Positions 809-62,796 of a DNA stretch of 64,000 bases are shown here, piece by piece. This stretch comes from Advenella kashmirensis WT001. GTDB taxonomy: Bacteria > Pseudomonadota > Gammaproteobacteria > Burkholderiales > Burkholderiaceae_B. The stretch lies in the NCBI RefSeq assembly GCF_000219915.2, contig NC_017964.1:1426001-1490000 (forward strand). Reading direction: 5' to 3'. Under the pieces are notes generated by a model. That model saw nothing but the letters and a program-made list of their open reading frames with translations. It did not search any database and was not told the DNA's origin. The position numbers and the translations under genes are program-made. Positions within the stretch are counted from its first letter, which is position 1. Every line of letters starts with the position of its first letter.

Positions 809-1488
809 TTATTGCAAAGGAAATAGATCCAGCACCGGCCAGCCATTTTTATTTGCCAGTTCGCGTAGCGGCGGTACCGGGTTGGTTGCAACCGGATGGG
901 TTACCGCTTCAAGCAGCGGGATATCGTTCTGGGAGTCGCTGTAGAACCAGCTCTCAGTAAAGTGCTCAAGAGTCAGGCCCATGCTGCTTAGCCATTCATT
1001 GACGCGAATGACTTTGCCATCCTGATAACTGGGCGTACCCACAACCTTGCCGGTGTAGCGGCCGTTTTTGTATTCCGGCACCGTACCGATAACATGCGGA
1101 ATGCCAAAGGCCCGGGCAACCGGCGCGATGACAAATTCATTGGTGGCCGACACCAGGCAACACAGGTCGCCCTGTTCCAGATGTTTTGCCACCAGGCCAC
1201 CGCCTTGTCGCGCATGGCGGGCCTGACCACTTCATGCATGTACTGTTCGTGAAAACGCGCCAGTTCATAAGGTGTATGCAGGTTCAGAAAACTCAGCATG
1301 AATTCGACCGATTCTTCTATTTTCAGCGTACCCGCCGTGTATTTTTCCATGAGTTCATGGTTTTTTGCCTGCACCACCTTGGGATCGCCACCCCAGCCAT
1401 TGCGGGCCAGGAAATCTACCCAGTGTCGATCAGTATCGATTGGCAGCAGGGTATGGTCAAGGTCAAACAGGGCGAGTCGTTGCGTCAT
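809..1488 (-). CDS. HAD-IB family phosphatase (SerB-like), frame broken near 1195
   Basis: Haloacid dehalogenase-type phosphatase of the SerB/IB group, about 226 aa when repaired. Motif I is LALFDLDHTLLPIDTD near the N-terminus, motif II is CCLVSATNEFVIAPVA, and motif III/IV is SWFYSDSQNDIPLLEAV. The substrate cannot be read from the sequence. The N-terminal half starts at ATG 1488; the C-terminal half is in another frame. The switch falls at a CC pair on the coding strand (1195-1196), where one extra C gives a continuous AVALVAKHLEQGDLCC. The break is therefore probably a sequencing undercall. The gene lies between pcnB and hda on the same strand, an order I believe is common in Burkholderiales. 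Confidence 0.85.
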
Positions 1489-1507
1489 AGTCAAATAGAT
1501 GTATTTT

Positions 1508-2181
1508 TCAGGAATGTCTGGATTGAAGGTAGGATTTTAACAAGGGAACGGTGATTGATCGCTTTTCAGCAAGCGAATAGCGATCAAGGGCGTCAAGCAG
1601 CGATGACAAGGCACTCATATCACGGGCGTAATAGTTGAACATCCAGTTGGTTACCTCGGCGCTAAGCGGGATGCCTTTGTCTGATGCACGCTGCAGCAGC
1701 GCGCTACGGCGTTCATCGTCGGTCAGGGTCTCAAGGCGATAAACCAGGTCCCAGGCAAGGCGCGTGCGCAGGTCTTCGCGTATGTCCAGCTGGCGGGGAG
1801 CACAGGGCCGCTGGCCAGAAGGGTAAAGGCTTCGGGTGTATGCTGGTGGGTTTTCCACTGGTTGAACAGGCCGAACAAAGCTGCCGCCTGTGCTTCGGAC
1901 AGGTTCTGTACGTCGTCCACTGCGATGATGCTGCCGGGCGCGACGGGTTCGCCCGGATCTGGCAGGATATCGGTTGCCGTATTCAGGTAGAGACCGTGCT
2001 GACGGGTGGCAGCACGCAGCAAATGGGTCTTGCCGCTGCCGTGTTCGCCCCAAAGATAGATGCTCTGTCCGGCGCCAGCGCCAAGCAGGCGGCTGACCGT
2101 TTCGCCATTGCGACCCGTCACGAAATTGTCGAAACGGGGAGGTACGACCGGCAGGACGTCCAGGATAAGTTGTTCTTTCAT
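1508..2181 (-). CDS. hda: DnaA regulatory inactivator Hda, frame broken near 1806
   Basis: Small AAA+ DnaA paralogue that, with the DNA-loaded beta clamp, stimulates ATP hydrolysis by DnaA and limits re-initiation. The start MKEQLILDVLPVVPPRFDNF contains the N-terminal clamp-binding segment (QLILDV). Walker A is LWGEHGSGKTHLLRA and Walker B is SIIAVDDVQ. The C-terminal lid, with DIREDLRTRLAWDLVYRLE and sensor regions, is in a second frame and ends at 1508. The frames join at a CCC run on the coding strand (1805-1807); one added C yields LLASGPCAPRQLDIRE. The start overlaps the stop of the PerM-like gene by four bases (ATGA), so the two are translationally coupled. Repaired length is about 225 aa, normal for the family. 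Confidence 0.9.
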
Positions 2182-3302: not shown

Positions 3303-4351
3303 ATGACAAATTCAAACAAATCTTCCTTAACGTATCGCGATGCGGGGGTAGACATCGACGCCGGGGATGCGCTGGTTGACCGGATCAAGCCGCTGGCGGC
3401 CAAAACCATGCGCGAAGGCGTCATGGCGGGCATTGGCGGTTTTGGGGCGTTGTTTGAAGTGCCGAAGAAATTTCGCGAGCCCGTGCTGGTTTCCGGAACC
3501 GACGGTGTTGGCACCAAACTGCGCCTGGCTTTTGAGTGGAACCGCCATAGTACAGTAGGCATAGACCTGGTGGCCATGAGCGTTAACGATATCCTGGTGC
3601 AGGGTGCAGAACCGCTGTTCTTCCTGGATTATTTCGCTTGTGGCAAATTGTCGGTCGACACCGCCGCCCAGGTGGTGGGTGGTATTGCCAAGGGCTGCGA
3701 GTTGTCCGGTTGCGCCTGATCGGCGGAGAAACGGCTGAAATGCCGGGCATGTATCCCGACGGCGAGTATGATCTGGCCGGTTTTGCCGTGGGCGCGGTCG
3801 ATAAATCGGCCATTATCAACGGCAAAAGCATTGTTGAAGGCGATCGCATCCTGGGCCTGGCCTCCAGCGGCGCGCATTCCAATGGTTTTTCGCTGATTCG
3901 CAAGATTCTGGAGCGCGCCGGCGCCCGTCCGGATGATGATTTCCACGGCCAGCCACTGGGTGACGTGGTCATGGCGCCCACCCGCATCTATGTAAAACAG
4001 GTGCTGGCGGCGCTGGCCCAGCATGGCACAGCGATCAAGGGTCTGGCGCATATTACCGGTGGCGGCCTGCTTGACAACGTCCCGCGCATTTTGCAGGAAG
4101 GCCTGAGCGCGCGTATTGAAAAAGCCGCCTGGACGCTGCCACCCCTGTTCCAGTGGCTGCAGCAGGAAGGGCAGGTTGCAGACACTGAAATGCATCGCGT
4201 ATTCAATTGCGGTATTGGCATGGTGATCGTGGTTGCCGCCGATCAGGCTGCGGCCATTACGGCAACCCTGCAGGAACAGGGCGAAACCGTTTTCGATCTG
4301 GGCCAAATTGTACGCCAGGAAGAGGGCATGCCTCAGGCTGTGGTGGTCTGA
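3303..4351 (+). CDS. purM: Phosphoribosylformylglycinamidine cyclo-ligase, frame broken at 3715-3716
   Basis: AIR synthetase, fifth step of purine synthesis: ATP-dependent ring closure of FGAM to AIR in the cytosol. About 349 aa when repaired, the usual length. Motifs in order: [20 protein letters not shown], the phosphate/ATP loop [78 protein letters not shown] and [13 protein letters not shown]. The first frame stops at 3719 (GCC TGA). One added C in the CC pair restores [14 protein letters not shown] and the second frame runs to 4351. This is an essential function in the absence of purines, so a sequencing undercall is much likelier than a null allele. It stands alone, facing miaA. Confidence 0.93.
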
Positions 4352-4414: not shown

Positions 4415-5347
4415 CTACCGAGCCATGATGGCGGCAGCGGCGTCAATAACGCGGTCCGCCACATCTGCCTGCAGGCAATCGATGACCTGACGATCAGGCA
4501 TGCTGCGCAACCAGGTGAGTTGCCGCTTGGCAAGTTGCCTGGTGGCGGCAATGGCTTTTTCCCGCGCGCTTTGCAGGCTGTCCTGGCCGGCAAGATGTTG
4601 CCAGATCTGCCGATAACCGACACAGCGTATTGCCGGCAAATCCTCGTGCAGATCGCCCCGGCGCCACAACTGTTCCACTTCTCTCACCAGCCCCAGCCCA
4701 AGCATCTGGTCAAAACGCAAGGCAATGCGTTCGTGCAACTGCAGGCGCGCCGAAGGCTCCAGGCTCACCATATGAAACGTATCGGTACTGGCGCGTTCGC
4801 CTTCAGCCGCAATCAGCGACGAATAAGGTTGGCCGGTGATCAGGCATACTTCCAGCATGCGCTGGATGCGCTGTCGGTCATTGGGGGCAAGCCGGGCTGC
4901 CGTGACCGGATCATGGCGCTGCAACAGCGCATGCACATGCGGCCAGCCATGCTCTTTTGCCATTTGCTCAATATCGGCGCGGATGCCCGCGTCTGCCTGC
5001 GGTAACGCATGCAGGCCCTGGCGTAGCGCATTGAAGTACATCATGGTGCCGCCGGCCAGCACAGGTATGCGGCTGCGCGCGCGTATTTGATCGATCAGCA
5101 GCTGGGTATCCTGCACGAACTGCGCGGCGCTATACGATTCTGTCGGATCTCGGATATCCAGCAGATGCTGGGGTGTGAGCGCTCGTTCCTGTGGCGTGGG
5201 CTTGGCCGTGCCTATGTCCATGCCAGTATAGATGGTGGCCGAATCAACATTGATGATTTCAATCGGCCAGCGTCGGGCCAGCGCCAGCACGCTGGCGCTC
5301 TTGCCCGATGCAGTCGGGCCGGCCAGGCACAATACCGGCTGCGTCAC
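4415..5347 (-). CDS. miaA: tRNA dimethylallyltransferase
   Basis: Transfers dimethylallyl from DMAPP to A37 of tRNAs reading UNN codons. The P-loop [16 protein letters not shown] is followed by [20 protein letters not shown] (DSxQ/DSA region), [28 protein letters not shown], and C-terminal [11 protein letters not shown] with the KRQLTWLR motif. I favour a GTG start at 5347: it overlaps the mutL TGA as GTGA and places ten residues before GPTASGKS. In-frame ATGs at 5389 and 5419 would intrude further into mutL and lack a good ribosome site. Last gene of the tsaE-amiC-mutL-miaA set, the arrangement also seen in enterobacteria, though no hfq follows. Confidence 0.94.
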
Positions 5348-7283
5348 TGGCCGCGCATGAACAGACGATCCAGATCGTTCATGCTCCATTGAAACCAGGT
5401 CGGGCGGCCGTGATTGCATTGGTTGGCCCGTTCCGTATGCTCCATCTGGCGCAGCAGGGCATTCATTTCTTCAAGGGTCAGGCGGCGATTGGCGCGCACC
5501 GAGCCGTGGCAGGCCATGGTCGAGAGCAGTTCATTGCGCTGACCGGTAAGTTGTTCGGAGTGGCCCACCATCTCCAGTTCCTTCAGGATATTGAGAACCA
5601 GCGATTCAATATCGCCGCCGGCCAGCAGGCTGGGCACCGATCGTACGGCCAGCGACTGCGGGCCGGTGGCGCTGATGGTCAGGCCCAGTGTGACCAACTG
5701 TTCCTTATGGCTTTCCATGACAGCGACATCGCGCTCGGAACAATGAATCACATAGGGAACCAGCAGTTCCTGCTGAGGTAATGCCTGCTGGTCGAGCAAC
5801 GTCTTCAGGCGTTCATAGACCACGCGCTCGTGTGCCGCATGCATGTCGACCAGAATCAGTCCGCGGGCATTCTGGGCCAGGATATAGATGCCATGAAGTT
5901 GCCCCAGCGCCATGCCCAGCGGATAGGGGTCGGCCTGGTCACCGGTGTCAGGCAGGCCGATGCCGGCATTGGCGCTGCCGTTAGTCGCGGGATGAAAGAC
6001 GCTTGCCGCCCCGGGCATGGCAAGATTGTGTTGTGGCTCGCCCAGGTGTTGCGAGGCCGATTCCAGCGGCGAGTAGAACTGTTTCCAGTGTTCCGTTGAT
6101 TGTGGCGAAGCGCTGTGCAAATGCAGGGAGGCTGATAGCCCGGGGTGACTCTGATGGTTTCCTGGGATTGGACGCCGTCGATGGCATTGGCGCCAATGCG
6201 ACCGTTTTCTGAGTTTTGTATATGGGTGGCGTATTCGGCCGGTGCCAGGCCGCCTGGCATTCTGGCAGGCAGGGCATTGGCTGCAGCCACTTCGCCGCCG
6301 ACGCCCGCAAGGGCCTGCGTAAGCACCTGCCCAACAAAACGGTGAATGGCGCCGCTGTCCCTGAAGCGCACTTCATGCTTGGCCGGGTGTACATTCACGT
6401 CTACTGCTGTAGGATCAATATCCAGGAACAGCACATAGGCCGGTTGCCGGTCGCCATGCAGGACATCGGCATAGGCCGTGCGTACGGCGTGGGTAACGGT
6501 GCGATCCCGTACAAAGCGACCATTCACATATAGATACTGACGATCGGCGCGGGCGCGCGCAGCGTTGGGCAGCGTGATCAGGCCTCGCAAGCCGGCGGCG
6601 GGCAATTGGGCGTCTACGGGCAGCCCGGCCTGGGTAAATTCATTGCCCAGCACATCCCGAATGCGTTGCAATAAATCTACCGGCATCCACTGCTTATAGG
6701 CTTTGCCATTATGGAACAGGCGAAAGGCGATGGCAGGGGTGGCCAAGGCAATGCGCTCGGCGACAGTCAGGCAGTGGCCCAGTTCGGTTGGTTCGGATTT
6801 CAGAAATTTGCGGCGGGCCGGAACGGCGTCAAAAAGCTGGCGCACATCGATGGTGGTACCTGTACTGCCCGCCGCCGGGCTAATCTGCAGCGCGGTGCCA
6901 TCAATCTGCCAGGCATGATCGTCGTTCTCGGTTCGGGAGGTAAGGGTCAGGCGAGCCACCGAGGCAATAGAGGCCAGGGCTTCACCGCGAAACCCCATGG
7001 AGCTGACCGATTCCAGGTCTCCCAGGCTGTTGATTTTACTGGTCGCATGACGGGTCAATGCGAGCGCCAGTTCTTCCCGGGGAATGCCGTGACCGTCATC
7101 GGTAATGCAAATGCGGCGAATGCCGCCGCCGTCCAGTCTGATTTCAATGCTGCGGGCTCCGGCGTCCAGCGCATTTTCCAGCAGCTCCTTCAAAACAGAG
7201 GCCGGGCGTTCAATAACCTCGCCGGCCGCGATCTGGCTAATCAGCGTGTCGGGCAGGGGGGCGATATGGCGGCGGTCGGACAT
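5344..7283 (-). CDS. mutL: DNA mismatch repair protein MutL, endonuclease type, frame broken near 6139-6145
   Basis: GHKL ATPase coordinating MutS-dependent mismatch repair. Start [21 protein letters not shown] at 7283 (an ATG at 7310 is also in frame). N-terminal motifs: [10 protein letters not shown] (residues about 34-42), DDGHGI (62-67) and GFRGEAL (97-103), then [15 protein letters not shown] and [15 protein letters not shown] poorly conserved linker holds the frame break; one extra base in the C/G run at 6139-6145 joins it to the C-terminal half. That half has [15 protein letters not shown], which fits the metal-binding endonuclease motif DQHA(X2)E(X4)E with M for Q, plus [10 protein letters not shown] and CNHGRPTW. 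So this MutL probably nicks DNA itself, unlike E. coli MutL. Repaired length is about 647 aa. Confidence 0.93.
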
Positions 7284-7392
7284 GGGGGCAGCATAAAGAG
7301 AGAAGGGCAATAGGACATTTTAGCGTGTTTGACGATTGACGTACACGTAAGTCTGGCCAGGGCGGATCACTGGCCCGATGACGCCGCAAATA

Positions 7393-12643: not shown

Positions 12644-12717
12644 CTCGCCGTAGTTAAATGGATATAACCGACCCCTCCTAAGGCCAATTACAGGTTCGAT
12701 TCCTGTCGGCGAGGCCA
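12644..12717 (+). tRNA. tRNA-Arg (anticodon CCT), one base short in anticodon stem
   Basis: Cloverleaf: acceptor CTCGCCG pairs with CGGCGAG, discriminator G and encoded CCA at 12715-12717; D arm GTTA/TAAC; T arm ACAGG/CCTGT with loop TTCGATT; anticodon loop CTCCTAA gives CCT. The anticodon stem is defective as written: GACCC on the 5' side against only GGCC before the variable loop AATT. Relative to the E. coli argW layout this is one base short, most simply a GGG read as GG at 12682-12683. One A-C mismatch would remain. It could be a sequencing error or a degraded copy; the downstream 300 bases are AT-richer than the neighbours and hold no gene until 13051. Confidence 0.72.
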
Positions 12718-17905: not shown

Positions 17906-20591
17906 ATGGCATGTTCAATTGATGCGGTAACGCCTGAAACGGTGGCATCGCTGGATCCGGATACAACTGTTGTTGTGACCGTCAATAACCGCCTGGTTTG
18001 GCGGGTTCACGCGTTGTTGCTTGAGCACGCCGGGCGCGGCAGGGCCGTGCTGCAGTTGCCCGTTGCCAGTTCACTTACCCGGTGGCTGGACCAGTTGCAC
18101 CAGGAGCGGCTTTTTTGCGCTGATCCCACCGTTCGCAGTCACCGGCTCAGTCCTTTTGCTGCTCGTCTGTTGTGGGAAGAGGTCGTCGCGTCCCTGCAGG
18201 GCGAAACCCCGCTTATTGACGTCCAACTGGCTGCCGCGCGCGCCATGGCGGCCAGTCATGATCGTGATGAGTGGCAGGTGCAGGTCCAGCCCCAGGAGCA
18301 GACCGAGGAATACCTGCGTTTTATGCAGTGGCGTAATCAATACGAACAACGCTGTCGCGAACTGGACGCCCAGGATGATAATCATCTGTATAACACGCTG
18401 ATCGATTCTATTGCTGCAGGTCGGTTGTTACGACTGCCGGCACCGTGGTCCTGGCCGGCTTCAACGAATACTCGCCGCGATTGGCGCGGCTATTGCAGGC
18501 GTGTGCAGAACGCGGCTGCAGGCTGGTATCGCTGACTTTGCCCAGGCATGAGCAGTCGCAACGCATCTTGTCAGCGCAAAAGGATCGTAGCAGTGAATGG
18601 ATCGCTGCCGCACACTGGGCGGCCGCCGAGCTGGCGGCCGATCCGCAGCTCCGCGTGGCCATTGTTTCGCCAGCGATGGAAGCCGATGCCGTGTTCGCAA
18701 GACGAATTCTGGATCGTGAGTTGTCGCCTGATCCCTTTGCGCCGGCCTATCGCTACAACATGACAGTGGGTCGCGCACTCGGGGACTGGCCGGTGGTCCT
18801 GGCCGCCTTTCGGTGGCTGTCGCTGATTGCCGGTCTGTGCGATCAGGGTTCGGTGCGGCCGCAGCAGTTTGGCCAGGCGCTGTTGGCCGGGTATTGCAGT
18901 GCCAGCGCTGCCGAACAGTCGGCCATGGCGGTGTTGGATGCACGTCTGCGCGATTCGCAGAATATCGCCTGGGGTGCGGATCAGGTATGCGCCCAAATGG
19001 ACCGGCATGTGCCAGACTTTTCCTATGTCTTTCGGCAGGCGATTGCGCACTGGCGGCAGGCCGCGTCAGGCGGGCGTCAGAACACCGAGCACTGGACGCA
19101 AGTCATGCGCGAGACGCTGGCATTGCTGGGCTTTCCCGGCAGTGCGCTATCGAGTACCAATTATCAGGTGTGCGCAGCGTTTGATGCGCTCTTGCATACT
19201 TTTTCACTACTGAACCTGTATGCGGGGCGCCTGTCGGGTATGCCCGCCGTTGCGCTGCTGCAGCGCATGGCCCGGGAATCCATGTTTCAGCCGCAACGCG
19301 ATCAGGGGGTCCGGCTGGATGTCCTGGGCTTTCTTGAAGCTGAACACGGCCAATGGGATGCGGTCTGGGTGCTTGGCCTCACAGATGATGTTATTCCTGC
19401 CAGTCCTGATCCGAATCCGTTTTTGCCCGTGGCGGCGCTGGCCAGGGCAGGTGCGCCGCGGGCCACGCCCGAGCGCGAGAAAGCCTGGGCAATTGATATG
19501 CTGCAGGCATTGTGCGGCGTTGCGCCCCGTGTCGTACTAAGTTACCCGGCCAGCGAGGCCGACAGAGCCTTGCGGGCCTCGCCATTGCTCAGCTTTTTTG
19601 TTGGCGCGCAGGCTGAACAAGGGGAGGGTGCCGAGCCTCCTGAATGTCTGTCGCGGGCCCGCAGCCCATCGTTGCCGCTGGAAACGCTGAACGACAATCG
19701 GGGTTTGCCTCTGGCCCATACTCTGGAAGGCGGCTCGGATTTGCTGGAAACGCAGGCACTTAACCCGCTTTGGGGGTACGTGCGGTATCGTTTGCTGGCC
19801 AAAGGCTCAAGCCCTATCCGGAATCGCTGAATGCAGCGATTCGCGGCATGTTCTTGCACAGCATGGCCCAGAAAGTATGGGAAATGCTGGGCTCGTCCGA
19901 AAGGCTGGCTCAACTTAGCCAAATTCAGCAGGACGAACTGGTGGCGCAGGCTGTAGCCATGGCGGCAGACCAGACCCTGGACGGGGTATCGCCAGTATTG
20001 GCGAGAATGGAAAAGGAACGGGGCCATGCAGTCATGATGACTTTGCTGGACCTGGAGCGGGAACGTTCGCCATTTCATATTGTGGGGGTAGAACAGGCTG
20101 CCGGCTGGCAGCATGCCAGCGTAAAAGTCAATTTACGTGTCGATCGGATTGATGAAACCGGGCAGGGTGCCAAAGTGGTCATGGACTACAAATCCGGGCA
20201 GCGCACGCCCGACTTTCAGAAAGACTGGCTGCGACCACAGCCGGTCAATCTGCAACTGCCCTTGTACGCCACGGTGCTGCGACAGCCCGATGTAGCGGGA
20301 CAACGCGGGCAGATAGAAGCCTTGCTGTTTGCAAAATTGAATGCAAAGAAAACCGAATTGAACGGCCTGGGCGAAAATGGCACAGACATTGCCGGGGTGA
20401 CGTCTCTGGGCAAGCTGGCACCGGAGCAGAGCTGGGAGGCGTTGCTGGAGAGCTGGGAACGCAGTCTGCAACAACTGGCCCGAGATATATCGGACGGGGT
20501 GGCCGACAACCGCAGCTGGGCTGTGAATGACCTGATCTATTGTGATGTGCTGCCGTTTTTGCGTCTGGCACAGGAGAGTGAAGATGACTGA
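17906..20591 (+). CDS. AddB-like PD-(D/E)XK nuclease/repair protein, frames broken at 18443 and 19804
   Basis: Large protein of the RecB-type nuclease superfamily that pairs with a UvrD-like helicase for double-strand break processing, of the AddB kind found in betaproteobacteria in place of RecBCD. About 895 aa when repaired. The N-terminal inactive helicase-like part contains VVVTVNNRLVWRVHALLLEH; the middle has LDVLGFLEAEHGQWDAVWVLGL, with the helicase-like GLTDDVIP. The C-terminal nuclease has VDRIDE and VVMDYKSGQ with Gln-rich strands LQLPLYATVL. Two frame breaks disappear on adding one C at 18443-18444 (LPAPVVLAGFNEYS) and one G at 19804-19805 (LLAKGLKPYPESL). It overlaps the helicase gene by eight bases. 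Confidence 0.85.
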
Positions 20592-23500
20592 ACGTCGGCC
20601 CAGTGATTTTGAGGCGCGGGCACAGGCGCTGCGCGCGGACAAATCGTTCATTATTCAGGCGCCGGCCGGTTCTGGTAAAACCGAGCTGCTCACTGATCGT
20701 ATTCTGGCGCTGCTGGGGGGCGTGACCAAGCCCGAAGAGATTCTGGCTATTACCTTTACACGCAAGGCAGCAGCCGAAATGCACGCCCGGGTGCTGCGCA
20801 AGCTGCGTGCCGGGCTGCTCGATCAGGAGCCGGCAAGCGCGCATGAAAAAAACAGCTGGCGTCTGGCCCGTGCCGCGCTGGCCCGTAATGAGCAACAAGG
20901 CTGGGATCTGCTTAATCACCCGGCACGGCTGAAGGTTCGCACGATCGATGCCTTTTGCGCGCAATTGGTCCGTTCCATGCCGTGGATGTCCGCCATGGGC
21001 GGGATGCCGGGCATTGCCGATAATCCCGAGCAGCTGTATTTGCAGGCAGCCAGACGATTGCTTGAGCATGTCGACGACAACGAGAGTGTGCAGGATGTGT
21101 TGCTGCATATGGATATTGACCTGGGGTCGGTAGAACGATTGATCGTGGATATGCTTGCGCGACGCGATCAGTGGCTGCAGGAAACGGTTAACACCCAGGA
21201 GGCCATGACCCAGTTGCGGGTGGCGCTCAGAGATGTCATGGAGCAGAAACTGGACGCCCTGGCAGAGGCGATGCCGTTTTCTTACGCCAGCGAGCTGGCC
21301 CCTATCGCGCGTCTTGCTGCCGCCAGCCAGGCCGAGACAGCCGTCTGCATGCTGGAGGCGCTCATGGATTGGGACGGGGTGCCGCTGGCCAGTTCCGTCG
21401 AGGCCCTGCCGCAATGGCATGCCTTGTCGCGCCTGCTGCTCACTGGCAGCGGCGGCTTGCGCAAGCGCCTTACCGTCAAGGAAGGTTTTCCGGCCAAAAG
21501 TGCGCACAAGCAGGCCATGCAAGACTGGCTCGATGCCTGGCAGAATGATAGCGAGCATTGGGCCGGCCTGCTTGCTGAAATCAGCAACTTGCCCCTGGAG
21601 GTATTGAGCGAGCGCCAGGAAAAAATCATCCGGTCTCTGCTGGAAACATTAAAACTGGCTGCGGCGGAGCTGACACTGGTGTTTCGTGAAGAAAAACAAG
21701 TGGATTTTATCGAGATCGCCCAAAGGGCAGCGCTGGCGCTGGGTTACACCGATGATCCCACGGATATGCTGTTAAAGCTGGACGCCCGCATTTCGCACAT
21801 TCTGATCGATGAGTTTCAGGACACCAGCCAGATCCAGATTCAACTGATCGAAAAGCTGACGCTGGGCTGGAGCCCGGGCGACGGCCGCACGCTGTTTCTG
21901 GTGGGCGATCCGATGCAGTCCATTTATCGCTTTCGTAAAGCGGATGTTGGCCTGTTCCTGAGTGTTGCCAACGAGGGGATCAACGGACTTGAGCTGGAAA
22001 AACTGGTCCTGACCGAAAATTTTCGTTCTCAGGCCGGCGTGGTCAATTGGGTAAACCAGTCCTTTAGTCGCGTGTTTCCGGAACATGATGACCTGATGCT
22101 GGGTGCGATCAGGTATACGGACTCGGTTGCATTCAATCCGGCTGCAGACGGTCCGGCCGTACGCTTTCATCCGGTTTATCAACCGGAAGACAAGGATGCG
22201 CAGGCAGTTCAGGCAGAAGCAGAGCAATTGACGCTGGAGCTGGTGCGGACAGCACTGGCAGCCAACCCGGGGAGTGATCATCCGGTCGCCATTCTGGTCA
22301 AGGCCCGAACGCATTTGGGGGCGCTGATGCTGCTCATGCAGCGTAACGGGATACCGGTGCGGGCGGTCGAGCTCAATCCGATTCGGGCAGAGCAATCGGT
22401 AACCGATCTGGTGCAATTGATCCGTGCGCTGGCTCATCCGGCCGATCGCGTGGCCTGGCTGTCGGTTTTGCGCTCACCTGTATGTGGGTTGACACTGCAG
22501 GCGCTAACCCATCTGTTTGGCGACAGTCGCGACACCATTGCCTTTCGGTTGCAAACGGTGCTGGCCCGCGAAGCTGAATTTGCGCCGTTGCTTGGCGAAG
22601 AATGGCCGCGTTTGCAGCGTTGCGCGCGAATTCTGCTGGATCGTAGTCATGTGACTGCCGATATTGCATTTTCCTCGCATGTGGAGTCTGTCTGGCGGGG
22701 GTTGGGTGGCTATGGCGTATATGCAAGCGATACGGCATTCGCCGATTTCCAGGCCGTGTTCGATCTGGTGGATAGACTGGCTCCCTACGGCGATCTGAAT
22801 CCTGCAGACTTGGAGGACGCGCTGGCCCGGCTGTACTCGGCTACGAGCGCGCAGCAGCGCGCGGTTGAAATCATGACCATGCATAAATCCAAGGGGCTGG
22901 AGTTCGAAGAGGTGATTTTGTATGGGCTGCACCGTCGGCCCCGTTCCGACACGGCGCCATTGTTGCGCTTCGAGCGTAACCGCGATCGCCTGTTAATGGG
23001 TCCCATCAAACCCAAGGCGGCAGAGGAAACAGACAAACTGTCAGCTATGTTGGGCGCGATGGAAAAACGACGCAGTGACTATGAGCTCGATCGCTTGCTC
23101 TACGTGGCAGCTACCCGTGCGCGCCAGCGCCTGCATCTGGTTTCGCAAATCCAGTGCAAGCAGGGCCAGGTCGTTGAGCCGCCGCGTGGTTCCCTGTTGT
23201 CCCGGCTGTTTTCACTATTTGAATTTACACCTCCCGCGCCTCAGGTGCAGCCTGCTGTGGCAACGGCCGATGCTGCCGCGTCAGGAATTCAGGGACCGGT
23301 TCTGAGCCGGATTGCCACTCGGGTTCTTGATCAAATGCCGGTCATTGCCGACAGAAGCGTTCTCACTGTTTCTGCGGGGACGGGTTGGCAATTTGATGAT
23401 AAATATGAGGCCAGCATTGGTACTGTGGCGCACGCATGGCTGGCCCGCATCGGCAGGACCGCATGCGGGGCTGGGACCAGGCGAGACTGCAATCGGTGCG

Positions 23501-28564: not shown

Positions 28565-28686
28565 ATGAGATGTTTCCTGCGCGGCCAGTGGGACATATTT
28601 GCCGTTTCCTGCAAACCATTGCTCCTTTGCGGCCCGATGAAAAATTGTAAATTAACAGTTGATTATTTCAAAATCTTACGGATACG

Positions 28687-39502: not shown

Positions 39503-39516
39503 AAGGTAATCAGGCA

Positions 39517-40170
39517 ATGGCCAAAAAGAAATTCTCGAAAGAATGGATACATCAGCATATCAATGACCCATACGTGAAAATGGCCAAGCAGCAGGGCTAT
39601 CGGGCACGGGCAGCGTTTAAGCTGATTGAGATCCTGGATTCGGAAAAACTGATGCGGAAAGGGGATATTATAGTCGACTTGGGCTCTACCCCCGGCAGTT
39701 GGTCGCAGGTTGCACGCGAAAGACTCGTTGGCGAGGGCGGAGTGTTGCAGGGCCGCGTCATTGCGCTGGACCTGCTGCCGATGGAGCCCATTGCGGGTGT
39801 GGAGTTCATCCAGGGCGATTTTCGTGACGATGCGGTGCTTGCCGCCTTAAACGACAAGGTCGGACAGCAGCAGGTGAACCTGGTCATGTCTGATATGGCG
39901 CCAAACCTGTCCGGTGTCAGTTCTGCCGATTCCGCCCGGATTCAGCATGTATGCGAGCTGGCCATGGCGTTTTCCTTGCAGCATCTGACGCCCGATGGCG
40001 TTCTTATCGTCAAGGCATTTCACGGCAGCGGATTTTCCCAGATCGTGCAGATGTTCAAACAGCATTTTAAGCGAGTTGTCGAGCGCAAGCCCAAGGCATC
40101 GCGCGACAAGTCTTCGGAAACCTTCTTGCTGGGGCGTGGTCTAAAGCATCCGGAGAACCGTCAGTTCTAG
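39517..40170 (+). CDS. rlmE: 23S rRNA 2'-O-methyltransferase RlmE (FtsJ)
   Basis: Methylates the 2'-OH of U2552 in 23S rRNA using SAM. 217 aa. SAM site [20 protein letters not shown], in part [13 protein letters not shown]; catalytic K-D-K-E tetrad: Lys in [11 protein letters not shown], Asp in [12 protein letters not shown], Lys in [11 protein letters not shown], Glu in [10 protein letters not shown]. Start ATG 39517, divergent from yhbY with 14 bases between. The 470 bases to ftsH (40171-40639) contain no gene I can support, only two short tandem copies of ATCAGGAAAAA near 40330. Confidence 0.95.
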
Positions 40171-42566: not shown

Positions 42567-43417
42567 ATGAATTATTCCACATTCATTTGCGGGCGCTTTG
42601 AGCTTACACTCAAGCGCCCGCTTGTTATGGGCATCGTTAATGTGACGCCCGACTCCTTTTCCGATGGCGCCGCCCATTTTTCTGCCGATGCAGCGACCGC
42701 GCATGCGCTGGAACTGATCGGGCAGGGTGCCGATATCCTGGATATTGGTGGCGAGTCTACTCGCCAGGTGCTGATGCCGTCTCCGAAGAGGAGGAGCTCC
42801 GGCGCATCATTCCGGTGATACATAATCTGCGTGATTGTGGCAGACCTATCTCCGTGGACACCTTCAAACCGGCAGTGATGCGTGCTGCCCTGGCGGCGGG
42901 TGCCGATCTGATCAATGATATTTATGCCTTGCGCATGCCCGGCGCCCTTGAGGTTGTAGCAGCGCATCCCAATTGCGGGGTGTGCCTGATGCATATGCAG
43001 GGTGAGCCTAAAACCATGCAGGCTGCGCCTCAGTACGAAAATGTGACTGACGAGGTCTACCGGTTTCTGGAGGAACGCAAGGCGGCGGCGGTGGCGGCCG
43101 GAATTGCGCCTGCACGCATCTGTCTGGATCCGGGATATGGTTTCGGTAAGACAGTGCAGCAAAATTATCAGCTTTTACGTGAACAGGACAGGCTGTCCGG
43201 TTTACACTCACCGTTATTAATCGGTCTGTCCCGTAAAACCATGATTGCAGCGGTTACGGGCCGGGCTCCGCAGGACCGCGTTGCCGGCAGCATTGCCGGC
43301 GCGCTGGCTGCTGCAAATCGGGGCGCGGCTATCATACGGGTACACGATGTCGCACAAACTGCAGATGCCCTCAAAGTGTGGGCGGCCACAGAACAAGGAG
43401 AAATTCATGGGGCGTAA
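42567..43417 (+). CDS. folP: Dihydropteroate synthase, frame broken at 42764-42765
   Basis: Condenses pABA with dihydropterin pyrophosphate in folate synthesis; sulfonamide target. About 283 aa when repaired. [36 protein letters not shown], then after adding one C at 42764-42765 [96 protein letters not shown]. First frame stops at 42818. Between ftsH and glmM (classic ftsH-folP-glmM order), overlapping glmM by eleven bases. Confidence 0.93.
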
Positions 43418-45794: not shown

Positions 45795-47281
45795 TCAGGA
45801 AGGAATAATATCCAGTGTAAAGCCGGCTTTTTTCCATTCGGCAGCTTCCAGAGACAGCGTGTACCGGGTCAGAGGGTGGTCTTCCAGCCATTTCCGGCCC
45901 ACGCGCAATATGAGTTTCTGATCGTCGGTTTCCAGTGAAACCGGAAGCGATGTCACCGGCTGGCGGCGGCGCATGAACACGACGGCCAGTCGCAGGCACA
46001 GGGTCAGCAGCCATTTGACGCGGCTTGGCTTTTCGGGCAGCAATTTGTCCAGCTTACCCTGATGGCCCAGGTCAGGAACGAGAGCAGTTCCTGTTCGGCT
46101 TCGGAAAAACCAGGCATGTCGGCGTTGGCCATCACGTAGGCGGTATGCTTGTGATAATTATTCTGCGAGATGCTCAGGCCGGTTTCATGCAAATCGCAGG
46201 CCCAGCTCAGATAGCGTCGTAGATCATCGGCTGCTGTTTCATCAGCCAGTATTGAATCAAAAAATGCCAGTGCCTGTTTTTTCACGCGCGCGGCCTGTCG
46301 GCTGTCAATATGGTAGCGTTTCATGAACACACCCGCTGTTTCATCACGCTTGTCATGAGAGCTGTCGCGGCCCAGCATATCGTACAGAACGCCGACGCGC
46401 AGCGCGCCGTCACCCTGGAACATCTGCTTGACCTGTAGTTCGCTGAAGATCGCCATCATGATAGACAGCCCAGCCGGCAGCACTTCCATGCGATCCAGCT
46501 TCAGGCCGCGCAATTCCGGCGCGTGAGCGCTGCCGTGACGGATCAGCACTTTTTTCAGCTTTTGCATGCCGTCCAGCGTAATGCCTTTTTCTGAAAAACC
46601 GGATTCTTCCAGGGTCGCAACCAGTGCTTTGGCCGTACCCGAAGAGCCGAAGGCTTCATCCCATCCCAGATGCCGATACTGTCTGGAAATAATTTCGATT
46701 TCCTTTCTAGCAGCAATTTCGGCCAGGACAAAGCCTTCTTCGGTGACTTTGCCGTCCGGAAAAAAGGACTTGGTGTAGCTGACGCAGCCCATGGCCAGGG
46801 ATTTCATGATCAGCGGTTCAAGCTCCCGGCCGATGATAAATTCAGTGGAGCCGCCGCCGATGTCGACGACAAAGCGTTGTTTATTGGACGGCGGCAGTTC
46901 GTGAACCACGCCGGAGTACACCAGCCGAGCTTCTTCCTGACCGGAAATGACTTCGATCGGGTAGCCCAGCGCGGCTTCCGCACGAGGCAGAAATTCAGCC
47001 ACATTGCGCGCGACGCGAAAGGTATTGGTTGCTACGGCACGTACACGGCCGGCGGGGAAGTTTTCCAGGCGCTCGCCAAAACGGGACAGCACGGCAATGG
47101 CGCGCTGGATTGCGTCTTCATCGAGCACGCGCTCGGCGTTCAGGCCAGCGGCAAGTCTGACGGTTTCCTTGAGACGATCTGTTGCGTAAATTTGCACAGA
47201 ATCATCGTTCTGGACAATCCTTGCAATGGACAGGCGAAAGCTGTTGGAGCCAAGGTCTACGGCGGCAAGTAATTGGTCCAT
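45795..47281 (-). CDS. ppx: Exopolyphosphatase, frame broken at 46066-46068
   Basis: Degrades polyphosphate from the end, releasing orthophosphate. About 496 aa when repaired. Start ATG 47281 (MDQLLAAVDLGSNSFRLSIA). Ppx/GppA motifs: DLGSNSFRL, VRAVATNTFRVARN, VISGQEEARLVYSGV, VVDIGGGSTEFIIG, EAFGSSGTAKALV, then the HD-like part ACDLHETGLSISQNNYHKHTAYVM. The frame breaks near the end; one G restores HQGKLDKLLPEKPSRVKWLL and the stop at 45795. Divergent from ppk. Confidence 0.93.
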
Positions 47282-47564
47282 GATGCATCTGCTAGGTAAG
47301 GGAAACGCCATTTTAGTAAAAAAGCCGCAAGCGTGAGCGAAATAAAGGCAATCGGCTTCATCATTTTTATTTGAATGTGGCGTCAACCTCTGCCATTGAA
47401 GGCAGGTATATATTGCCAGTATTGCGTAGCAATTATTAAATAGATAGCATGTCGGCAATGGTTTTAATAGAAAACCATGCAGATACGCCAAGTCTTTAAA
47501 TTCGAGTGGATACCAAACGCTGTACGCATCGGCAAAATGAAGCTGTTTTACAGATATTCGCGTT

Positions 47565-47582: not shown

Positions 47583-47643
47583 ATTGTGAGAGTATAAGAA
47601 CTGTTCTTTGCCAAAGCCTAATACACACAACAACTGCGCCTTC

Positions 47644-49748
47644 ATGTCCGATACCAATCCTGTCCCAGTTTCTGCTTCCTCTTCCGACTCCGTCACGCTG
47701 CTCAATCGCGAACTGTCATTGCTAAAATTCAATGAACGGGTGTTGGGCATGGCCATGAATCAGGCCAACCCGCTACTGGAGCGCCTGCGCTATTTGTGTA
47801 TTGTCAGCTCCAATCTGGATGAGTTTTTTGAAATCCGCATCTCCAGTCTGAAAGAACAGGAACGGCAGTTTCCCAATGTGCCGGGCGATGACGGCCTGAC
47901 ACCGTCGGCAGCATTCGAACTGGTGCAGCATCGTGTGCACGAACTGGTCGATCGCCAGTACGCGTTGCTGCACAAGGATATTTTTCCTGCCTTGCGCAAG
48001 CAGGGCGTGTCTGTGCTGGCCCCCAGGGAATATTCAGATGCCATATCCGCCTGGCGCGCGATGTGTTCCTGAACGAGGTGCTGCCGCTGCTTACGCCTAT
48101 CGGCCTTGATCCGGCGCACCCGTTTCCGCGTGTTTATAACAAGAGTCTGAACTTTATCGTCTCGCTTAGCGGCGAAGATGCCTTTGGCCGCCGTGCGTCC
48201 ATTGCCATTGTGCAGGCACCGCGCGCTTTGCCTCGTTTACTTGAAATTCCCGAATCGGTCTGCGGGCACCGTCATTGCTACACGCTTTTGTCCTCGCTGA
48301 TGCAGCAGTTCTCCGGAGAGCTGTTTCCGGGCATGGAGGTAAAGGGGCTATATCAATGGCGTGTCACGCGTAACAGCGACCTGTTTGTTGATGAAGACGA
48401 GGTGACCAACCTGCGGCAGGCGCTGCAGGGGGAGCTGTCGCAGCGTAACTTCGGGGCGGCGGTTCGATTGGAAATTTCTGAAGACACTCCGGTAGAACTC
48501 GAACATTTTCTGCAGCGGGAGTTCGCGCTGGGCCCCAAGGATACCTACCGCACGCACGGTAGTGTCAACATGACGCGCCTGATGCCGCTATGCGATATTG
48601 ACGCTGACCCGCAGTTGGTGTTCCCCAGCTATCGGGCCCGCCTGCCGGCCCCATTCGATTCCATGAATGATAATCCTGCAGAAATGTTCGATGCGATAGC
48701 GCGGGAAGACCTCTTGTTGCACCATCCGTACCAGTCATTCAAGCCAGTGATCGACTTTCTGACATCAGCTGCGCTGGATCCGCAGGTAGTGGCGATCAAG
48801 CAAACCATTTATCGTACCGGTGAAGATTCCGAACTGATGGGGCTGTTGCTGGCCGCAGCCAAAGCCGGCAAGGAAGTGACGGTAGTCGTAGAATTGATGG
48901 CCCGTTTTGACGAACAGACCAATATCAACTGGGCGGCCAAGCTGGAAGAGGTTGGCGCACATGTGGTCTATGGTGTTGTGGGCCATAAAACGCATGCCAA
49001 AATGTTGCTGGTGTTGCGCCGCGAAGGCAAGAAAATCGTTCGCTACGGACACCTGGGTACCGGAAATTATCATCCACGTACGGCACGGCTCTATACCGAC
49101 TTTGGTTTGCTGACGGCCAATCCCGATCTGACCAATGATATGGATCGGGTTTTTTCCCTACTTACAGGCTTGGGCGCCCGGCGTCCACTCAAACTGCTGC
49201 TGCAGTCGCCGTTTACCCTGCACGAACGGGTACTCAAGATGATTCAGGCTGAAACCGAACAGGCGCAGGCTGGAAAAAAAGCGGTGATCATGGCCAAGAT
49301 GAATTCTTTGCTGGAAGTGGAGGTGATCAACACTTTGTACAAGGCCAGCCAGGCCGGCGTTCGCATTGAACTGATCGTGCGCGGGGTATGTGCGCTGCGT
49401 TCCGGCGTTCCCGGCCTGTCGGAAAATATTCGGGTGCGTTCCATCATTGGGCGCTTTCTGGAACACTCGCGAGTGTTTTATTTTCATGCCGGTGGCCAGG
49501 AGCAGGTTTACCTGTCTTCTGCCGACTGGATGGCGCGCAATTTTTTCCGCCGTGTGGAAGTGGCCTTCCCTATCCTGAATCCGGTTCTGAAAAAACGGGT
49601 AATCAATGAGTCCTTTACCTTCCCATTGAAGGACAATGTGCTGTCGTGGGAGCAGAAACCCAGTGGCGAGTACGAGCGAATAAAAAATCGTCGGGAGCCA
49701 TTCAATATCCACCAGTACTTGATGAATCTGCTTGGCAAGGCCGGTTGA
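47644..49748 (+). CDS. ppk: Polyphosphate kinase 1, frame broken at 48041-48042
   Basis: Reversibly polymerises the gamma phosphate of ATP into polyphosphate. About 702 aa when repaired. Start ATG 47644 (MSDTNPVPVSASSSDSVTLL). N domain: LLNRELSLLKFNERVLGMA, SNLDEFFEIRISSLKEQ. Break near 48041: one C gives SDAHIRLARDVFLNEVLPLL. Later motifs: YQSFKPVIDFLTSAALDPQV, QTIYRTGEDSELM, catalytic His in YGVVGHKTHAKMLLVLRREG, in part VGHKTHAKM, GTGNYHPRTARLYTDFGLLT, in part GTGNYHPRTARLYTD, and RGVCALRSGVPGLSENI. Preceded by a Pho box. Confidence 0.94.
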
Positions 49749-52350: not shown

Positions 52351-53233
52351 ATGAATACAACGACAGCAACAACATCGCAGGCCAATTCGGCCATCAATCC
52401 CGGCAACTGGATTTACCGTCGCCGCCATATGCGCAACAAGGTCATGCTTGTCTTATCGTCGGCAGCGCTGCTGTTCGGCCTGTTTTGGCTGGTCTGGATC
52501 CTGTTCACGCTGGCTGTGAAGGGCGGCGGTTCGCTCTCATTTTCGCTCTTTACTGAAAAAACACCAGGTCCGGGCGAATCAGGCGGGCTGGCCAATGCGC
52601 TGATCGGTTCCGTGCTCATGTCCGGGGTTGGCACGGCTATCGGTACGCCGATTGGCATTCTGGCCGGAACTATCTGGCTGAATATGGACAACGCGGCTGG
52701 CTGGCACCGGCAACCCGCTTTTTGAATGACGTGCTGCTCTCTGCGCCATCCATCGTGATCGGCCTGTTCATTTATGCCATTGTGGTTGCCAACTCGGGGC
52801 ACTATTCGGTTGGGCCGGTTCCTTTGCATTGGCCATTCTGGTTATTCCTGTGGTGGTGCGTACTACAGACAATATGCTGGCGCTGGTGCCCAACAGTCTG
52901 CGCGAGGCTGCGTCTGCACTGGGCTGCCCGAAATGGCGCGTGATTACGCTGGTATGTTATAAAGCAGCCATGTCTGGGATTCTGACTGGCGTCTTGCTGG
53001 CGGTGGCCCGTATTGCCGGCGAAACCGCGCCGCTGCTGTTTACCGCGCTGTCGAACCAGTTCACCAGCTGGAACATGAATGCGCCAATGGCCAATCTGCC
53101 GGTGGTGATCTATCAATACGCTGCAAGTCCGTTCAAGGACTGGAATGAGTTGGCGTGGGCTGGCGCCACCCTCATCACATTGCTGGTGCTGGCGCTCAAT
53201 ATTCTCGCCCGTAACTTGTTTCGCAAACAATAG
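52351..53233 (+). CDS. pstA: Phosphate ABC transporter permease PstA, frames broken at 52703 and 52808
   Basis: Second membrane subunit of the Pst importer, about 294 aa when repaired. ATG 52351 ([16 protein letters not shown]). Fragments: [40 protein letters not shown], then after adding one G at 52703-52704 ([20 protein letters not shown]) and one at 52808-52809 ([20 protein letters not shown]) the frame continues through [37 protein letters not shown] and [16 protein letters not shown] to 53233. Both breaks are G-run shortages. Confidence 0.93.
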
Positions 53234-55381: not shown

Positions 55382-57755
55382 ATGTCAGAGCAGCAAACCC
55401 GAGTTACCGCCATCAGAATCGAGCAAATGGACTGCCCGACTGAAGAGCGGTTATTGCGCAAGGCGCTGGAGAAAAAGCCAGGGGTAACCGACCTTCGTTT
55501 CAATCTCATGTCCCGCGTTCTGTCTGTAACGCATGATCCGGCCATACTGGAAGAGGTCATGCAGGCTATTCGCAAGATCGGCTTTACGCCGGAGCTGCAC
55601 GATGGCAAGTCCGCAACTGCACGGACAATCAGCAAAACAGGTTGCTGCGGGCATTCGCATGCCACTACAGGCGGACAGACAATTGCCGGCGCCCCGCACA
55701 GTCATGGAGACAGCGGGGTGCACGGCGCACACGATCATCATCAGCACGAACACAACCACGACGGTAGTCACTGCGCCCAGGGGCACGATCACACGCACGG
55801 ATCAGCGCAAGGCACCTTGCTTGCGCAGCCGGAAGGCGAAGTCTCTCCCAATATTGCCGGCGGCATCCTGCCGGCCTGGTGGCATCTCGCGCTGGGCGGG
55901 GCGCTGGCGCTGGCATCGGAGCTGGTCCACTGGTTCGGCGGACCAACCTGGCTGACGATTGTCTGCGCTATTGCCGCCGTTGCCCTGGCAGGTACCGCCA
56001 CCTACCGCAAGGGCCTGGTTGCGCTGCGTTACGGCGATCTGAACATCAATGCGCTTATGAGTATTGCCGTCACCTGCGCCTTGCTGATCGGCCAGTGGCC
56101 TGAAGCGGCCATGGTCATGGTGCTGTTTACGCTGTCTGAATGGATTGAGGCAAAATCGCTGGATAGAACCCGCGCGGCTGTGGCCGGACTGATGAACCTG
56201 GCGCCCGAAACGGTGACGGTACAGATCGATGGGCAATGGCAGAAGCGTGAAGTCGCGCAAGTCGCTGTCGGCAGCCTTGTGCGTATTGCACCGGGCGAGC
56301 GCATCGGACTGGATGGCCGTATTGTTCGTGGCGTGACAACCGTAAATCAGGCGCCTATTACCGGCGAAAGCGTGCCGGTAGATAAACAGCTGGGTGATAC
56401 GGTGTTTGCCGGCACTGTCAACGAAGCCGGCGAAATAGAAATTGATGTGACTGCGGCGGCCGACAGCACAACGCTGGCCCGCATCATCAACCAGATTGAA
56501 GAGGCCCAGGCGGTCAAGGCGCCGACGCAGCGTTTTGTTGACACGTTCTCGCGCTATTACACGCCCGCAGTAGTGGTGTTGGCCATTTTGCTTGCGGTCA
56601 TCCCGCCGCTCTTTTTTGGAGGGGCCTGGCTGCCTGGATTTACCAGGCGCTGGTCGTGCTGATTATTGCCTGCCCCTGCGCCCTGGTCATCTCGACACCG
56701 GTGACCGTGGTCAGCGGACTGACCGCAGCGGCCGCATGGGGATCCTGATCAAGGGTGGTGTGTATCTGGAGCAGGGGCATCGCATGCGTTGGCTGGCACT
56801 GGACAAGACTGGCACGATCACCCAAGGCCAGCCGGTGCAGACGGGCTTGATACCGCTGGGTCAGGAACGATCTGTTGAGCAACTGCAGCGCATTGCGGTG
56901 AGTCTTGCTGCACGCTCTGATCATCCCGTCTCACGGGCCATCGCACAGGCGCCCGAGGCGGCTGCCATGTTGGCCATGACAGTAGCTGATTTCGTTGCTG
57001 TGGCAGGGCGGGGCGTGCAAGGCGTGATTGATGACGAGCGTTGGTATCTGGGCAGTGCCGTGTGGGCGCAGGAGCTGGGTCTTATGACCGCTGCGGTCAG
57101 AGACAGCGTGACGGCGGCACAAACCAGTGGTCAAAGTGTTGTGCTGCTGATGAACACAGGCGCCGCTTGCATGTTGTTTACCGCCGCCGACAAAATCAAG
57201 GACAGCAGTATCAAGGCGATTGAGCAATTGCATCAGTTGGGTGTCAAGACCGTGATGCTGTCGGGCGATCATCAGTCTGTTGTTGACGCCATTGCCAAAA
57301 CCAGTGGTGTGACCCAGGCCCATGCACAGTTGTTGCCGCAGGAAAAGCAGCAAGTGGTGCAGAAGCTGCAACAAGACGATCGCACGGTGGTCGGCATGGT
57401 CGGAGACGGCATGAATGATGCGCCGGCGCTGGCGCAAGCCAATATCGGGTTCGCGATGGGCGCTATGGGTTCCGATACGGCAATCGAAACGGCGGACGTG
57501 GCGCTGATGGATGATAATCTGCTCAAAATTCCCGCATTTCTCAAGCTGTCGCGCACCACGCGCCGCGTGCTGGTGCAAAACATCAGCCTGGCCCTTGGTA
57601 TCAAAGCGGTTTTCCTGGTCCTTGTCCTGTTGGGGATGGGTTCCATGTGGCTTGCGGTTTTTGCCGATGTTGGTGCCAGCCTGCTGGTGGTGGCCAATGG
57701 GTTGCGGTTATTGCGGGCCGGCCCGAAGCTGCAGGAGACAAATGAAGCCGTCTGA
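55382..57755 (+). CDS. Zn/Cd/Pb-translocating P-type ATPase, frames broken at 56633 and 56732
   Basis: P1B-2 type heavy-metal exporter (CadA/ZntA/PbrA-like), about 792 aa when repaired. N-terminal HMA-like domain carries [17 protein letters not shown], with one metal Cys instead of the usual CxxC. A His-rich segment ([15 protein letters not shown]) follows. Then [23 protein letters not shown], the helix with [20 protein letters not shown] (CPC), KTGTITQGQ (phosphorylated Asp), [12 protein letters not shown], and [13 protein letters not shown]. Breaks are fixed by one C at 56633-56634 (GAWLPWIYQ) and one C at 56732-56733 ([13 protein letters not shown]). Controlled by the divergent CadR. Confidence 0.9.
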
Positions 57756-60158: not shown

Positions 60159-60177
60159 AGAATCAAGGTAGCAGATA

Positions 60178-61505
60178 ATGAAGGGCAGCCAAGCGGCAGA
60201 CACAATTTACGATGTACTTGGGATAGCCTGGGGCCCTTCAACCTGGGCCTGGCATGTCTGATGGCGCCAGTAGAGAATCTGACCGCCGTGTTTCTGGAGC
60301 GCAAGAGCGCGTTCAGCTGGCACGATGGCATGATGATCCCGGGCACGACGCTGCAGAACAACTTCATGGCCGACCTGGTTACGCTGGCGGACCCGACCAG
60401 CCCCTTTACTTATCTGAACTACTGCAAGCAGCACGGGAAAATCTACCGCTATTATTTTCGGGAGAATTTTTATCTGACCCGGCAGGAATACAATCGTTAT
60501 TGCCAGTGGGCCGCCTCGCAACTGGACAGTGTCCATTATGAACGGAAAGTGACCGCGCTGGCGTATGACGATGCCGATCAATGCTACGTGGCTACAGTAA
60601 CCGATTTACGCAATCAATGTCAGTTGCAATATCGTGCACGCAGGCTGGTGGTCGGTATTGGTAGCGTGCCCAGCCTGCCGGCTTGCGTTGGTGAAGACTA
60701 TTTGTCAGCGCATACCGGCCAGTACCTGCGGCAAAAAGCCAGGTTGCAGAAAGCACGCAGAATTACGGTGATCGGCAGTGGCCAGAGTGGCGCCGAGATC
60801 TATTATGATCTGCTGCAGGATATGGAGCAACACGATTACGAACTGTACTGGATCACGCGTTCTTCCCGTTTCTTTCAGATGGAAACCGGCAAGCTTACGC
60901 TTGAACTGATTACGCCTGACTATGCCGAGCATTTTTACCAGCTGGACGAACAGCAAAAGCACAAGACGCTGCAGGACCAGGTCAGCATATTCAATGGCAT
61001 CAATACCAGCCTGATTGAACAGATTTATGACGAGCTGGATGAAAAGTCGCCAGACAGCGCCAGCCGCACCCATCTGTACACCAATATGGCACTTACGCAA
61101 TGCAGCCGACGCGGCAGCGACACGGAACTGGTTTTTGATCATTGCCAGACTGGCAAGCGGTATCGCTTCATGACAGATGAAATCGTGTTTGCCACCGGCT
61201 ATTGCTATCGTATACCCGACTTTATGCAGGGGATTGCTGACAGACTCCATCTGACCAGCCAGGGGCGCTACCGTCTGGCTCAGGATTACGCAGCGGATAT
61301 CAATGGAGATGAAGTCTACATTCAGAACGCGGGCTTTGACAGCCACGGTCTGACCAACCCCGATCTGGGATTAAATTGCTTTCGCAATGCCCGCATTATC
61401 AATGCGATTATGAAGCGGCAAGTGTATGCGATTGATACCGGTACGACGTTCCAGGCGTTCACGCCGCAAGAGAACAACCAGTTTGCACAGTTGAGCGACC
61501 AATGA
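60178..61505 (+). CDS. alcA: L-lysine/ornithine/diamine N-hydroxylase (AlcA/IucD-like), frame broken at 60226
   Basis: Flavin monooxygenase that N-hydroxylates a diamine or amino acid, the first step of hydroxamate siderophores (putrescine in alcaligin and putrebactin). About 443 aa when repaired. Start ATG 60178 (MKGSQAADTIYDVLGI); adding one G at 60226 gives the FAD-binding start GLGPFNLGLACLM and continuous sequence. NADPH site ITVIGSGQSGAEIYYDLLQD; FATGY near EIVFATGYCYRIPDF; GLTNPDLGLNCFRNARIINA, the ending typical of the family. It overlaps the MFS gene by four bases. Identity with Bordetella AlcA is inferred from neighbours. Confidence 0.87.
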
Positions 61506-62796
61506 CCATACGCCTTGCCATTATCATTATGTCCGCGCTGGGCATGATGAGCGATACCGTGCTTATCGGTTTTTATCCGCAGTTTTTTGACATGCGCTAT
61601 GGCAACACCGATCAGGTGCACACAGGGATGTATGTGGCAGCGATATCGATTGCCGTCATGTGTACGCTGCCGATTTGGGTGCGGGTAGCCAAACGGTTCG
61701 AGCCCATGTCGCTTATTGGTTTTACCCAATGCATCGCGGGCCTGCTGTGTCTGTCGGCCATCTGGGCAGAAACGCTGACGCAGTACTGGGTTTTGACCAT
61801 GCTCATGTTCATGTTCAAAAGCAGTTACTTGCTGATGTTTCCGTACCTGATGCGCATCGTCAATAGCGATGAACACAGCCGGACCATCGCGCTGCTCTCT
61901 GTTGTGGTGCACATCTCGGGCATTCTGGCCGCGGCTTCGGGGGGTTATATATTGCAGCACTTGGGAGCGAGTGCGGCACTGGTTCTGATGGCCGCTGGTG
62001 ATTTTGGCCAAATGGCGATTACGCTCTGGCTCAATCGCACGGGGAAAATCATCAAGATCAACAAGCAGGAGGATATCAATGCACAGGACATCAAGGATAC
62101 AGCGGCGATCGTTGCTGATGATGCCACGGCACCCGCGCCGGTAGCCACACGCCGCGGATTCTCGCATTTGACCAAGGGCATTCTGACGCTCAGCCTGATT
62201 ATGTTTGTGTTTGATTTCAGTGCCTATCTGATACGGCCGTTCTTCTCCGAATACTGGATTTATGCGACGGCACACAAGGACCAGACACTGGCCGGCTTGA
62301 TTTTTGCCATACCAGGACTGGCGGCGGTGGTTGCCTGATTGTCAAGCATCGGCTGAGCGCGACGGCGACGCAGCGCAATGAAAACCTCTCCTGGAATCTG
62401 CTGTTGTCGCTGGTCGGCCTGTACCTGCAGTCTATCCCGTCCGACATTGCCATTGTGATCGGGCGTTGCATGTACGGCTGGGGGCTGTTCCAGGTTGCCG
62501 TCAAGCTTGAAGTCAGTCTGTTTAGCATCAGTCGCAAGGAAGACTATGCACATCACTTCAGTATCACCAATTTTTTCCAGAACCTGGGCGTGCTTATTTC
62601 GTCCTGGTGCGCAGGCTATATCGTCAGTCTGATCAGCCATCAGGCCGTGTTCCTGATTGCCGCAGGCGGCATCGCGTTGACCTGGCTGGCCAATAAGCTG
62701 ACGCTGAATCTGGACCATATCAAGACAACCGGTGTTCCGCAGGGCGCCGATACAGACAGGAGCAGCGAAATTGAACTGGAATCCCGGCGCGTTTGA
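61502..62796 (+). CDS. MFS transporter, probable siderophore exporter, frame broken at 62334
   Basis: Twelve-helix major facilitator, about 432 aa when repaired. Start ATG 61502 (MTIRLAIIIMSALGMMSDTV). First half includes VRVAKRFEPMSLIGFTQCIA; a hydrophilic central loop with alanine/threonine stretch follows; the second half, FAIPGLAAVVALIVKHRLSA (after adding one C at 62334-62335), YLQSIPSDIAIVIGRCMYGW, GVLISSWCAGYIVSLISHQA. Placement between the hydroxylase and acetyltransferase genes suggests export of the newly made siderophore, like AlcS in Bordetella, though direct evidence is lacking. Confidence 0.82.

Follow-up and report, generated by a model that had tools for sequence, protein, structure and literature searches.

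The sections of PMC3623719 that deal with the Ion Torrent PGM describe a class of strand-asymmetric high-frequency indels made up largely of C and G deletions, with 82% of the class located in runs of two to three; such strand-asymmetric sites are 7.4% of the testable high-frequency indels. Among PGM high-frequency indels overall, the same sections place only 29% in homopolymers, and insertions outnumber deletions in many runs (its Table 2) and in the raw reads. For 454 pyrosequencing, passages in PMC3764156 and PMC3623719 describe homopolymer over- and undercalls, that is, indels at runs that become worse with length, and the latter source gives insertions about the same likelihood as deletions.

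The single-base losses that we describe here in the assembly of Advenella kashmirensis WT001 are like the PGM strand-asymmetric class in being mostly C/G deletions at two- or three-base runs, and unlike the wider PGM set, with its many insertions and A/T sites, in that only 32 insertions accompany 223 deletions. They share with 454 errors the location at runs and the increase with length, but losses dominate in WT001. The full PGM high-frequency set amounts to about one indel per 1000-2000 bp (PMC3623719), which compares with a deletion every 2,145 coding bases in WT001. The PGM indels were scored in reads against a reference, whereas ours are inferred in a finished consensus by comparison with congeners. 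Dependence on a motif was suspected for the PGM, with no motif named in the PGM section, while in WT001 a hot spot at GCCCT could be measured. On this comparison, the type of error resembles the Ion Torrent strand-asymmetric subclass, and we regard Ion Torrent as a lead and not as a result.

Advenella is a member of the Alcaligenaceae. The WT001 genome has 4,423,879 bases in two contigs, a chromosome of 4,365,995 and a second contig of 57,884. We analyzed a 64,000-nucleotide stretch (the window), positions 1426001-1490000 of the chromosome contig, together with congeners of which G001 and G006 are collinear with most of the window at ~88-92% identity and G007, G009 and G003 show patchier collinear alignment. 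The Illumina-sequenced strain A. kashmirensis W13003 was unusable as a same-species check because its ANI to WT001, as reported in PMC3907720, is only 78.7%. Searches of a plasmid collection with the window start and with the 16S sequence gave no useful match.

Single-base losses in the window

Private indels were sought in a leave-one-out scan, in which conserved G001 ORFs were matched to DNA of each genome, the matches were aligned, and indels found in one genome only were assigned to that genome. From 62 selected ORFs, 54 were aligned (58,504 columns) and 8 had no usable match in the window. Two of the 54 alignments (G001 genes 1576_2557 and 2553_3525) hit ~53300-53900, which was already covered by another gene; they were read as paralogue mismatches and left out before counting. 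All of the longer frame-changing indels seen in the window, and the single insertion of two bases, came from these two alignments. Across the remaining 52 genes, single-base deletions private to the window numbered 22, and neither private single-base insertions nor longer frame-changing indels were seen there. Treated identically, G003, G006 and G007 had one private single-base deletion each and G001 and G009 had none; single-base insertions numbered 3 in G003 and 0 in the other four, and longer frame-changing indels were counted in G001 (3), G003 (6), G006 (3), G007 (4) and G009 (3). The missing base is present in three to five congeners at each of the 22 sites. At 21 sites, the adjacent run is longer by a G or C in at least one congener, in agreement with the G/C bias first noticed from the window alone; the exception, at 27767, is an A. 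A run-class table made from these window alignments misplaced gaps where the flanks differ and was superseded.

At the start of the window, single losses affect the genes for a HAD-IB phosphatase (809..1494, minus strand; near 1196), hda (1508..2181, minus; near 1804), purM (3303..4351, plus; near 3714) and mutL (5344..7310, minus; near 6131). Further along, an AddB-like DNA repair gene (TIGR03623; 17864..20591, plus) lacks bases near 18436 and 19803, an AddA/RecB-like helicase gene (20542..23927, plus) one near 23453, and the transaldolase gene tal (27610..28594, minus) two, near 27767 and 28220. Losses were also located in a gene for an NCS2 uracil/pyrimidine permease resembling RutG (36668..38039, plus; near 36919 and 37490), in a yhbY gene with a C-terminal extension (38921..39526, minus; near 39514, 39047 and 38980), and in folP (42567..43417, plus; near 42763), ppx (45798..47323, minus; near 46070), ppk (47608..49748, plus; near 48052) and pstA (52351..53233, plus; near 52670 and 52807). 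The last three affected genes, all on the plus strand, encode a heavy-metal P-type ATPase (55382..57755; near 56631 and 56731), an AlcA-like lysine/ornithine N-monooxygenase (PF13434; 60178..61505, with the start placed by analogy with G001; one base short near 60225) and an MFS_1 protein (PF07690; 61502..62796; one base short near 62333). When the unbroken copies of the congeners were scanned for protein families, the results backed the gene names used earlier for this DNA. The AlcA-like protein has a single NCBIfam match, below the cut-off, and its Pfam family is lysine/ornithine N-monooxygenase.

A sequence-only reading of the window had listed 20 breaks in 15 genes, each mended by one added base. 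Comparison with the assemblies of close relatives showed that the congeners carry the extra base at every listed break, so that all 20 are one-base losses; 19 were recovered in the scan, and the alcA break, which lies in a trimmed alignment end of the scan, is visible by local alignment with G001, G006 and G007. The positions agreed within 14 bases for 19 of the 20 (mutL being placed at ~6131), and the first pstA break was moved to ~52670 from 52703. All of the listed breaks are present, but the count was too low, as the three losses in yhbY bring it to 23 in 16 genes. The suggestion that irregularities in yhbY and in a tRNA gene probably share the same cause also fits, the former with these three losses and the latter with the comparison that follows.

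The tRNA-Arg(CCT) gene (12644..12717, plus) is one G shorter, on the 3' side of the anticodon, than the copies of G001 and G006. ARAGORN reported a two-base anticodon for this tRNA, probably because of the missing G. The two 16S copies of WT001 are identical to each other over 4,039 aligned bases, and two Gs found in the 16S of G001, G003 and G006 are absent from both. When 12 copies from six other genomes were checked for these motifs, 11 had the first full-length string and 5 the second, the remainder having neither form; the shortened strings were absent from all 12 and present in both WT001 copies. A first 16S alignment, of whole loci, was uninformative and was replaced by this one.

Spectrum and sequence context of the losses

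The comparison with G001 was also made over 664 kb, consisting of the window and the 600 kb to its left, for which the corresponding G001 sequence is 680 kb. Of 550 ORFs queried, 430 were kept. Another 51 hits were skipped because the match was short, identity was <80% or substitutions showed no excess at third positions, which by subtraction leaves 69 ORFs with no hit. The 430 genes, with 478,350 aligned coding bases, contained 223 clean single-base deletions and 32 such insertions in WT001 (~7:1), part of which may be changes or errors of G001, and the insertion count is a rough ceiling. The one-directional loss claimed for the window is seen both there (22 to 0) and in the larger region. 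At least one clean single-base deletion was present in 159 of the 430 genes (37%), and 25 of the 223 deletions fall within the window. Other clean frame-changing deletions were few (11 of two bases and 2 longer), and 30 single-base deletions and 22 single-base insertions failed the clean-flank filter. Losses numbered at least two in 31 of the 33 full 20-kb bins, and the other two bins had none. An earlier pairwise count over 264 kb that included intergenic DNA gave 86 clean single-base deletions and 30 insertions, with 260 and 321, respectively, failing the flank filter; it is the weaker count, since it also takes in genuine indels between genes and stretches of poor alignment.

The lost base was assigned as G or C in 164 of the 223 cases, 135 of which lie in runs of at least two, with an even division on the plus strand (69 G and 66 C). 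For G/C runs of lengths 1-7, the loss per 1000 runs was 0.2, 1.1, 7.3, 7.3, 13.8, 54 and 200, and for A/T runs of the same lengths it was 0.33, 0.33, 0.42, 0.88, 2.3, 3.5 and 23, with only one to two events per cell at lengths 6-7 in both series. Loss climbs with run length, although the G/C series is flat between 3 and 4 and has few events above 4, and in A/T runs of 3-7 the rate is 6- to 17-fold below that of G/C. Of the 223 clean deletions, 118 are in G/C runs of two bases (51) or three bases (67). At 68 of the 223, the congener run length is one, perhaps partly reflecting a congener difference at the site.

When contexts were collapsed to the C strand, with the 430 kept ORFs as background (a first table used all 550), loss was found at 31 of 1,078 occurrences of 5'-GCCCT-3' (28.8 per 1000) compared with 36 of 8,164 CCC runs with other flanks (4.4 per 1000; Fisher p = 1.4e-12). 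Flanks of G before and T after lead among CC runs too (24 of 5,233). Because of this strong flanking-base effect, run length alone is insufficient as an explanation. The raw k-mer density of GCCCT is 0.954 of that in G001; this small deficit is no independent proof, since it is only what a 3% loss predicts. Our guess is that the effect stems from carry-forward or flow order. We consider it unlikely that GCCCT, with GCCT leading among two-base runs, marks a motif-specific loss beyond run-length miscounting, brought about by flow-order phasing, by the library-preparation polymerase or by a base modification of the strain at GCC(C). If it did, the error map would report on template chemistry.

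Constraint beyond the breaks and their probable origin

We examined selection beyond the breaks in 96 genes whose only frame-changing indel was a single clean deletion, compared with 226 intact genes; the remaining 108 of the 430 carried frame-changing indels in other combinations and were excluded. Codons were taken from the alignment columns according to the reading frame of the congener. Amino-acid changes per codon were 0.046 upstream of the gap, 0.038 downstream and 0.045 in intact genes, and the share of substitutions at third positions was 78.8%, 82.5% and 79.4%, respectively, among genes that entered the test with at least half of their substitutions at third positions, a requirement that would have left out freely decaying genes. 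As judged from these substitution patterns, the stretches past the breaks appear to have evolved as working protein, under undiminished purifying selection.

The frame breaks are almost certainly consensus errors of the assembly, produced by undercalling of G/C homopolymers, and an artefact instead of biology. This reading is favored because the loss is one-directional, G/C-biased, dependent on run length and widespread, reaching coding genes, tRNA and 16S, with selection undiminished. In flow-type sequencing, which we take to have been used, the signal from a homopolymer would be read as one base too few, and where too few independent reads overruled the short call, one base would be gone from the consensus. 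The main targets would be G/C runs of at least two, foremost C runs with a G before and a T after (or the reverse complement). The genes would then be intact in the living strain, and the breaks absent from the cell. The earlier proposal of homopolymer undercalling, as opposed to mutation or programmed shifting, is thus supported, but with most G/C losses in runs of 2-3 and with the flanking-base effect in addition. Against undercalling can be set the small number of events in long runs, the flanking effect that length does not predict, the sites with a run length of one, and the single A among the 22 sites of the window.

Single-base indels in runs are a known mark of mismatch-repair mutators, and mutL is among the broken genes, which would suit a strain whose runs had truly slipped and whose frame breaks were real. 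Mutators gain and lose bases, however, mainly in long runs and with A/T included, whereas the 223 losses and 32 gains of WT001 lie mostly in short G/C runs. A culture with 159 of 430 genes, a tRNA and both 16S copies hit would hardly live, yet growth data in PMC4814524 give A. kashmirensis WT001 an OD600 of 0.48 at 24 h, compared with 0.57 for E. coli BL21. We therefore hold a mutator origin to be very improbable. The same large number of interrupted genes could be taken for decay of the genome, with pseudogenes under relaxed selection. The downstream codons are instead constrained like those of intact genes, the breaks are almost solely losses of one base (223, compared with 11 of two bases and 2 longer), and housekeeping genes, tRNA and rRNA are affected, which makes decay more improbable still. 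A different proposal would accept the breaks as real and have programmed frameshifting or transcriptional slippage restore the proteins. The location of the breaks mostly at short runs could be cited for it, but two- and three-base runs make poor slippery sites, the shift site is not shared (three to five congeners carry the base at each of the 22 sites), and neither mechanism could rescue a tRNA or 16S; we find this hardly conceivable.

If undercalling is accepted, the platform can be considered separately. The rates that climb with run length in G/C and A/T alike would suit 454 pyrosequencing or another platform as well as Ion Torrent, to which the match is partial, and consensus calling could still turn 454 errors one-sided. 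The similar likelihood of insertions and deletions given for 454 in PMC3623719 argues the other way, as deletions prevail 7 to 1 here and short runs are dominant. A platform other than Ion Torrent therefore seems to us a nearly even prospect, tilting slightly against.

Consequences for use of the genome and minor observations

As an assembly artefact of a familiar type, the losses hold little biological interest; their practical importance is as a warning to users of the genome. Gene absence, pseudogene counts, novel small proteins and frameshift claims taken from the WT001 assembly are unsafe. At a rate of roughly one missing base in every 2.1 kb of coding DNA, the losses would be on the order of 1,500-2,000 genome-wide, as extrapolated from 15% of the chromosome. 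Placement based on 16S could be slightly misled, with two Gs missing in each of the two copies. The contamination estimate of the WT001 genome is 3.87; of nine congeners, eight have an estimate of 1 and the other has 4. Genes split through frame errors could have inflated the WT001 value.

Outside the window, the compared G001 region offers no collinear match of at least 400 bases to chromosome positions ~1332600-1352600, 1356400-1362350 and 1365050-1371950 (~20, 6 and 7 kb), which are possibly insertions or islands of WT001. Within the window, positions 15300-17100 and 25260-25960 lie inside long matches to G001 and G006 (the latter stretch partly) and have no match of more than 300 bases in G007 or G009; 25260-25960 lies in the middle of an 803-aa ORF at 24133-26544. 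Finally, between window positions 58077 and 63952, much of the AlcA-like/MFS region matches G007 at two places, with 84% and 72-78% identity, as if a siderophore-like locus were duplicated in that genome.
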